64,000 nucleotides of DNA. It comes from Nakazawaea peltata (lineage: Eukaryota; Ascomycota; Pichiomycetes; Alaninales; Pachysolenaceae). The position numbers were made by a program, and so were the translations under genes. The notes beneath the pieces were generated by a model that was not told the origin of the DNA, did not search any database, and saw only the letters and a program-made list of their open reading frames with translations. The stretch lies in contig BCGQ01000001.1 in the NCBI GenBank assembly GCA_001599355.1, positions 65,135 to 129,134 on the forward strand, given 5' to 3'. The number at the start of each line of letters is the position of its first letter. The first letter of the stretch is position 1. Positions 31,650 to 33,969 of this stretch are shown one piece after another.

Positions 31650-33969
31650 TCATTCAACAATTCTACCACATCCAATCACTTTATCACCCTTTCTAATGAC
31701 CACTCTCGATAATTTATCCATACTTAAACTATATGCTGCCTTATGATCTAATTGAATAATCACCTTCGCACTTTGACCGGAAACTAAATGTCTCTTTTTG
31801 TATGGTTTCTCATCTATTGAACCGTCTGTGGATTTCTTGAAGATGGACTCAATTTTGGAAATTTTCGACTCATATTGTTTACAGTTATGGAATAACACAA
31901 AGGATGCACCAATCAATAAAGGTTTATCCAAGTCGAATAACTTCAATTCGATCTTCAATTGGTCATTTGATTTGAAATCATCGGGTTGATCAGTGAAAAT
32001 ATCTCCATTACTTACTAATGAAACATCCTCTGATTGAACTACTCTTAATTTCAAGTTTGATACGAAATCTCCCTTCTTGATCAGATCCTTAGATTCGATT
32101 TTCAAAATACTACCCGTTGGGAAAGTCTTGATTTCACAACCATTGGAAGAGTATCCCAAATTGACACGGCCGTTGATCTTCAACTCTTTTTCAGATGAAG
32201 AATCCAAAACCTCGGTGGCTGTCAATACAAACGGTTCCTCCAAGAACTCTGACTGTCTACTTTGAACCAGCTCTTGCAAGCAATCCATTAAAGTGAAATT
32301 CCAGTCGATTTTATTAGACGACTTCACCACATTGTATCCGAGCAAACCACTGATAGGTACAAACTTCAAGTATTCTTTTTTAAACCCAATCAGCTCCAAA
32401 TCTCTGGTCAATGAATCAATGACAGGCTCCAATTCTGATGTTTTGAAATCAAAGAGATCAAACTTATTGATAGCCACGATCAAACTATCGATTCCCAAAT
32501 TCTTACTAATTAAAACTTGTTCCTTGATCTTCAGGAATCCATCGGTATGATCATTACAATCCACTAAGACAACTCCCACATCAGCCTGTGAAATTCCATT
32601 GATTAACTGGGGGACATAGTCTTTATGGCCTGGTGAATCGATGATATTGAACTTCAGAGTATCAGTTTCCACCGAGGTAGTCACAATATCTACGGTGACA
32701 CCTCTAGATCTTTCTTCATCAGTCTGATCCATGATCCACAGAAGCAGGAATGAGCCCTTACCGATCTTATCACTCTCTTGTTGCAATTTATGAAGAGTCT
32801 TGGAGTCGACTACATTCAAATCATACAACATACGGCCAACAAGAGTCGATTTCCCACTATCCACATGACCGAATATGACAAATGACAACTGAGGTTTCAA
32901 ATTCAGTGGCAGAGGTGGCTTTTTAGAGGACTTTTTCAACAGTTTTTCAACTGGAGCCTTCTTCTGAGAAATACTCAACTTGTTCAAATCCTCAAACAGA
33001 TTAGCCTGTGCTTGTAAGATGACATCATCGGGACTTGGTTTGGAGAAATTAGATGTCACTTTTTTCACTATGATTTCATCGTTAGTATATATTGGTCGTA
33101 ATATGTCGTAATAACTATCATCTAGTTTGCGTTTTTTTGAGTTTGAGGTCAAGACAGAGGTGAATTTGGTTCTTGATATTGTGATGAGAGAGTCATTGAG
33201 ACCTACTCTCGATGCAATGATATGAGCTGGAGTTGGTTTAGGAACAACCATTGGTGATTCAACTGGAGAAACTACTGGAGAAACTACTGGCTCGACCGGT
33301 GTTGGGTCACGTGCCAAGTCACGTGACTGATCAACTCCGACCTTGTCAGCTTCCTTCACCACTGGTGCTTTATTCATATCCTTAATTGGTCTCCTTGTAA
33401 TTGGTCGCACCTCTCCTCCACGCAATGAATCTAATATAGAGATAGCCCTTTCAGAACCTTCACCTTCAACCTGTTTCTGTTCCAACTTCAGCAGCAGTCT
33501 CTTCTTCAGCAACATTGCCAACTTAGAAGAACCCGCCACCATCACATTCCGAGGATAAAATAACATCAAACCTAAAATCCGTTAGTCGAACTATGATCAT
33601 TTGATAAAATAACACATCAAAACACTCCACTAGAAGATTGCAAAAGATCAATAATTCAACTTCCTAACGGAATCAAAATGATAGAGTTAATAAAAGATAC
33701 TTACGTGGCTTCGGCTTATAAACCGTCTTGATCTCCAGAGTGGCATCCTCTACATTGTAGTAGTTCAACCACAAATACTTTTTGAGGACTTGGTCATTGA
33801 TCTCGGAATTGCCGTACTCTTTGAATTGGCTCCTTATGATGGGGAGCAGGTCATATAATTGGTCATATTCGTCATCTGGTAAGTCATCTTCGATCAATTC
33901 TTGATCTTGATCTTGGTCGTCCAGTAATTCATCATAGAAGTCATCTTCATCCACGAAATTAGACGCCAT
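31650..33969 (-). CDS. HBS1: HBS1/SKI7 translational GTPase, spliced, with two possible acceptors
   Basis: Exon 1 is 33969-33705; exon 2 is 33571-31650, giving 728 aa. Exon 1 carries the Hbs1 N-terminal domain (acidic, then VLKKYLWLNYYNVEDATLEIK). The GTPase domain has GHVDSGKS, DSPGHKDY and NKFD, all intact, so this is an active Hbs1-type GTPase, followed by beta-barrel domains II and III. Between the intron and the GTPase lies a long linker holding ISRTKFTSVL and PSPDDVILQAQ. Use of the in-frame acceptor at 33069-33068 would shorten the protein to 560 aa, near yeast Hbs1 (611). Known role: with Dom34 rescues stalled ribosomes; Ski7 links the exosome to the Ski complex. Confidence 0.93.
33068..33087 (-). 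promoter_or_regulatory. HBS1: Alternative 3' splice site inside HBS1/SKI7 exon 2
   Basis: A perfect TACTAAC (33087-33081) followed 11 nt later by an AG (33069-33068). Joining exon 1 here is phase-compatible and deletes exactly 504 nt (168 codons). Confidence 0.7.
33572..33704 (-). other. HBS1: Intron of HBS1/SKI7 (proximal acceptor)
   Basis: 133 nt: donor GTAAGT, branch-like GACTAAC, acceptor TTTTAG (33573-33572). Phase 1 joining C|GT. The first acceptor gives the long isoform. Confidence 0.88.

Follow-up and report, generated by a model that had tools for sequence, protein, structure and literature searches.

Structure of the SKI7/HBS1 gene

The window, by which we mean the whole stretch of 64,000 nucleotides of Nakazawaea peltata DNA that was analysed, carries a SKI7/HBS1 gene on its minus strand. 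Sequence reading reveals one 5' splice site and two in-phase candidate 3' splice sites in this gene, the distal one of which is located just upstream of the motif S3 (Table 1). In a preliminary description of this DNA, exon 1 had been joined in phase 1 to position 33571, and its coordinates, with a length of 265 nt ending in phase 1, were confirmed. Joining at this proximal acceptor removes an intron of 133 nt and leads to a protein of 728 amino acids. A perfect TACTAAC within exon 2, followed after 11 nt by AG, had also been claimed and was found at the same place when the sequence was read again. Joining behind this distal AG, at 33067, stays in frame and removes an intron of 637 nt, leading to a protein of 560 amino acids, and the difference between both forms amounts to exactly 504 nt, as had been described. 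At the junction of the short form, C and TG are brought together as a CTG codon, which is followed by KKVTS and then by NFSKPSPDDVILQAQ. A scan of exon 2 for common types of branch-like heptamers did not reveal a further one and agrees, for the types scanned, with the earlier statement that no nearby TACTAAC with an acceptor had been noticed elsewhere in this exon.

Table 1. Features of the SKI7/HBS1 gene of N. peltata, with positions counted from the first nucleotide of the window
Feature	Position	Strand	Remarks
Exon 1, Hbs1 N-terminal domain	33705..33969	-	88 codons + 1 nt; assigned by Pfam HBS1_N and coordinates
5' splice site GTAAGT	33699..33704	-	donor GTAAGTAT at 33704, end of exon 1
Proximal branch-like heptamer GACTAAC	33581..33587	-	followed by N7 and AG
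Proximal 3' splice site AG	33572..33573	-	candidate; long, Ski7-like form; exon 2 from 33571
Alternative coding segment, 504 nt / 168 codons	33068..33571	-	long form only; open under translation table 26
SKLAMLAKKR (CTG = Ala), candidate Ski7 motif S1	33498..33527	-	sequence reading
ISRTKFTSVL, candidate exosome-binding (SKI7-like) motif	33150..33179	-	sequence reading
Distal branch site TACTAAC	33081..33087	-	candidate; followed by N11 and AG
Distal 3' splice site AG	33068..33069	-	candidate; short, Hbs1-like form; exon opens at 33067
Motif S3 / Patch 4-like, NFSKPSPDDVILQAQ	33006..33050	-	both forms; alignable with NFNRPSPDDIIQSAQ of Ski7 from S. cerevisiae
Translational GTPase and C-terminal domains with stop codon	31650..32891	-	common to both forms; GTP_EFTU, GTP-eEF1A_C

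Identity of the gene and its expected partners

Pfam searches revealed the HBS1_N domain (PF08938) in exon 1 with 42.1 bits (E = 1.2e-10), covering residues 9-88 and thereby reaching the last codon of the exon. The family GTP_EFTU was matched with 139.7-141.6 bits, depending on the genetic code, and GTP-eEF1A_C with 30.8 bits, and the best PDB match of a standard-code query was Hbs1 (5m1j; E = 9.5e-73). The GTPase had been described as intact and indeed the motifs GHVDSGKST, RGVTVD, DSPGHKD and NKFD, including the histidine of G3, can be read in the sequence. The S3 motif was aligned to its counterpart of Ski7 from S. cerevisiae (PDB 5g06) with 21.1 bits and E = 0.0025.

When the genome was searched with the exon-2 protein, nine matches were obtained and only the locus in the window covers residues 1-639 of the query. 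The remaining eight matches are confined to query residues 187-595, which correspond to the GTPase region and its neighbourhood, and judging by their size they likely represent eRF3, eEF1A and other translational GTPases. In this search of an assembly that may be incomplete, no second SKI7 or HBS1 gene was found. Viral contigs, in which relatives were looked for, yielded none. Genes for the expected partners of Hbs1 and Ski7, as named by family and size, are present in the genome. A pelota/DOM34 gene was found above the cut-off with 278.5 bits, two DSHCT proteins are encoded in frames of 1067 and 1332 amino acids, as would be expected for MTR4 and SKI2, and a further frame, of 1455 amino acids, encodes one TPR_22 protein, as would be expected for SKI3.

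Probable decoding of CUG as alanine

For 10 of the 35 listed ORFs, Pfam searches were performed with CTG translated as leucine, serine or alanine, and all 16 rows with E values of 1e-10 or lower were compared. The bit scores summed over these 16 rows amounted to 2842.1 for alanine, 2814.9 for serine and 2805.7 for leucine, and the best code was alanine in nine rows, leucine in three and serine in two, with ties in the other two. A pattern search for tRNAs with a CAG anticodon, which would overlook intron-containing genes and those with an unusual T arm, gave five matches, in which ARAGORN found two tRNAs, one of them with CAG. This tRNA(CAG) (G000:C4:81458; L003:1469-1542) comprises 74 nt and has no long variable arm, and it is therefore not built like a tRNA-Leu or a tRNA-Ser. 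Its acceptor stem, when read by hand, shows a G3:U70 pair and one mismatch at 6:67. A G3:U70 pair is an identity element for alanine. ARAGORN labels this tRNA as Leu, by its anticodon, no Rfam match was obtained at the gathering score, and a plain fold yielded neither a cloverleaf nor a low energy (z = 0.35). According to excerpts of a published study, Pachysolen, Nakazawaea and Peterozyma constitute the clade that reads CUG as alanine, and the tRNA(CAG) of this clade arose from tRNA-Ala (PMC5951914). The profile scores together with the tRNA(CAG) indicate that the yeast very probably belongs to this CUG-Ala clade.

A sample of 124 ORFs from the window and from L006-L025 (187.8 kb in total; no overlaps, each 200 codons or longer) contains 1054 CTG codons beside 2972 GCN codons. 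CTG is thus not rare and, if reassigned, would be in ordinary use for alanine. The preliminary description had translated the gene with the standard code and has to be corrected in this respect, as CTG very probably encodes alanine and 18 residues of the long form would then change. Under the alanine code, the switch region reads SFALAW, the last alanine of which is also alanine in the aligned 5m1j, 5lzw and 3mca, and the S1-like stretch reads SKLAMLAKKRAAAK.

Comparison with known SKI7/HBS1 genes

Alternative splicing of SKI7/HBS1 genes is an already published phenomenon. Passages of Marshall et al. (2013; PMC3597508) report that it was shown in Lachancea kluyveri, Aspergillus and Saitoella, and in the case of L. 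kluyveri both isoforms were demonstrated by rt-PCR, Western blot and complementation, the long form being Ski7 and the short form Hbs1. The same passages place the alternative (distal) acceptor of the fungal genes just upstream of S3 and describe the same two potential sites in five pre-duplication Saccharomycetaceae as well as in Candida guilliermondii, Debaryomyces hansenii and C. lusitaniae. Excerpts of another study state that in humans, and typically in plants, a single locus gives rise to Hbs1 and Ski7 through alternatively spliced forms (PMC6143672). The earlier statement that one gene makes both isoforms by alternative splicing in other fungi and animals agrees with these sources. The assignment of the 560-residue form as Hbs1 and of the 728-residue form as Ski7-like is in agreement, on the grounds of sequence and homology, with the published fungal architecture (PMC3597508, in part), and in its sequence-testable features, except for S1 and S2, the N. 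peltata gene appears to fit the known pattern.

Differences to the known systems were also noted. In contrast to the L. kluyveri gene, the N. peltata gene likely belongs to a CUG-Ala yeast, and its predicted short-form junction would create a CTG (Ala) codon. With C. guilliermondii, D. hansenii and C. lusitaniae it shares two predicted 3' splice sites at similar places (PMC3597508, in part), but these species belong to the CTG clade, in which CUG is read as serine. As in the loci of metazoa and plants, two proteins would be formed from one locus and a Patch 4-like SPDD motif is present; however, the metazoan Ski7 form, as described in excerpts of PMC6143672, lacks the C-terminal GTPase that the predicted long form retains. 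In the literature collection searched, there was no paper that treats SKI7 together with either Pachysolen or Nakazawaea, none on alternative splicing of HBS1 in Pichiaceae, and none that combines Ski7, Hbs1 and Komagataella. The predicted new element is an alternatively spliced SKI7/HBS1 architecture in a yeast that is very probably a member of the CUG-Ala clade.

Candidate introns and chance occurrence of the two acceptors

In order to compare both acceptors with other introns, 264 kb of DNA were scanned. A blind count of donor, branch site and acceptor gave 24 combinations of GTAAGT or GTATGT with TACTAAC, in comparison to 20 when the donors were reversed and 8 when the branch word was reversed. 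Because this count was not clearly above the reversed-donor control, support by the reading frame was required for candidate introns. The frame-supported scan of the 264 kb gave 47 rows, with several rows per acceptor and many of them surely false, and 15 rows outside the SKI7/HBS1 gene had a GTAAGT or GTATGT donor. In ten of these 15 rows (nine acceptors), NACTAAC is separated from the AG by 5-11 nt, among them one GACTAAC-N7 and one TACTAAC-N11. The other five were set aside; their branch words are TACTAAT, TGCTAAT or TATTAAC, and their gaps range over 5-22. With respect to these comparison introns, which are candidates by frame support, both acceptors of the SKI7/HBS1 gene seem to fit the local habit, although the heptamer GACTAAC of the proximal site occurs in only one of the ten comparison rows. 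At another place of the window (3188-3129, minus strand), a candidate intron of 60 nt, GTATGTAA ... TACTAAC-N8-AG, leads into a frame that is open for 186 codons.

As a string, TACTAAC-N11-AG is at the level of chance, with 120 copies in the 11.63-Mb genome against 114 of the reversed pattern, and on its own it was dropped as evidence. In the 124 ORFs, a sense TACTAAC with an AG 3-20 nt further on was found five times, and three of these five, including the one of the SKI7/HBS1 gene, are in phase 1; at the rate obtained from these ORFs, about 0.009 in-phase sites would be expected in 0.55 kb. When the protein encoded by exon 2 was kept fixed and its codons were redrawn (4000 trials), 2.4% of the trials gave an in-phase site somewhere in the exon, and 2.2% gave one at most 15 nt away from the real site. 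TACTAAC itself shows no clear depletion in the coding sequence of the 124 ORFs (6 seen versus 9.7 ± 2.8 by synonymous recoding). Its reversed control, CAATCAT, is under-represented in the same ORFs (6 seen versus 17.6 ± 3.7).

These data bear on the reading that the distal TACTAAC/AG is an unused chance match in coding sequence and that the 728-residue protein alone would exert both functions. That the string is at chance level genome-wide would suit this reading, and so would the in-phase matches in two other ORFs of the sample, though one of these two coincides with the acceptor of a candidate intron that starts at position 77423 of the joined L006-L025. A match would have to arise by chance, however, within an exon where recoding produces one in about 2% of cases, and at a position and in a phase that correspond to the published distal acceptor; in addition, the long form of L. 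kluyveri does not complement hbs1 (both from passages of PMC3597508). We consider a mere chance match very improbable.

The main rival is an internal start as in Candida albicans, for which excerpts of PMC3597508 describe a single gene with the distal acceptor and a Ski7 mRNA that starts just upstream of S1, with a Met codon at S1. Applied to N. peltata, only the distal acceptor would be spliced, yielding Hbs1, and a second promoter, located within the intron, would give rise to the Ski7 form, translated from an internal ATG (33566 or 33542) directly ahead of the S1-like motif. Both ATGs are in frame and directly precede SKLAMLAKKR, in line with such a start, but N. peltata possesses an in-phase proximal acceptor, which the same excerpts report as absent in C. 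albicans and three close relatives. When the stretch ahead of the S1-like motif was shuffled by dinucleotides, an open in-phase proximal acceptor arose in only 7 of 5000 trials, and the recurrence of GACTAAC-N7-AG in one other candidate intron also argues against an internal start as the sole source of the Ski7 form, which we therefore regard as unlikely. Similarly doubtful, in our estimation, is a combination in which alternative acceptors of the Lachancea type would be used and a Ski7 form would also start at the internal ATGs that closely follow the proximal acceptor, as an evolutionary intermediate towards the promoter switch of C. albicans; in such a lineage, the reassigned CUG would occur both at the junction specific to Hbs1 and within the S1-like motif.

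The segment skipped in the short form

Between both acceptors, SKLAMLAKKR and ISRTKFTSVL are candidates for S1 and S2, respectively, in a segment without a significant match to Ski7 of S. cerevisiae. A PDB search with the first 56 residues of the segment found no Ski7 chain, and 580 of 3000 shuffles aligned equally well to the N-terminus of S. cerevisiae Ski7 when the alanine code was used (784 and 657 of 3000 with leucine and serine, respectively). In the best alignment, the S1-like stretch is not paired with the Ski7 N-terminus. A likeness of the skipped segment to the Ski7 N-terminus was thus rejected as not significant. The patterns S[KR]LAxL and LA[KR][KR]R are rare in shuffles (0.07% and 0.17%, respectively), but they had been chosen after seeing the sequence.

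The preliminary description had likened ISRTKFTSVL to the exosome-binding motif of Ski7. The residues R, F and L are present, but the spacing R-x2-F-x3-L is one residue shorter than in the RxxxFxxxL that excerpts of PMC6143672 describe, together with Patch 4-like motifs, as SKI7-like, and it fits the plant form A+SLFaaa[P/L] given there. R-x2or3-F-x3-L arose in 2% of shuffles of the skipped segment, which makes ISRTKFTSVL weak evidence.

A model for the formation of Hbs1 and Ski7-like proteins

The gene identity, both splice sites, their phase and the intact GTPase motifs are found at a locus for which no second gene was detected. Taken together with the published architecture, they make it highly likely that N. 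peltata has a single SKI7/HBS1 gene of a CUG-Ala yeast, in which two competing acceptors would lead to an Hbs1 and a Ski7-like form. According to this model, the HBS1_N exon ends in a single donor, which would be joined to either of two 3' splice sites, and a separate branch site would serve each of them. Use of the distal site (TACTAAC) would generate the 560-residue Hbs1 and use of the proximal site (GACTAAC) the 728-residue Ski7-like form, the 168 extra residues of which, located between HBS1_N and S3, might bridge the exosome and the Ski complex. From the sequence we infer that both mRNAs are made, and a division of labour between the two forms is suggested by homology to L. kluyveri.

If the alanine reading holds, a standard-code translation of this genome would give wrong proteins wherever CTG occurs, and in the SKI7/HBS1 gene it would obscure the conserved alanine in the switch region as well as a possible S1 motif. 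Should both junctions be in use, the strategy, conserved among fungi, of obtaining Hbs1, for ribosome rescue, and Ski7, as the exosome bridge, from one gene would extend to the CUG-Ala clade, and it would have survived a change of the genetic code that touches residues of the very same gene.
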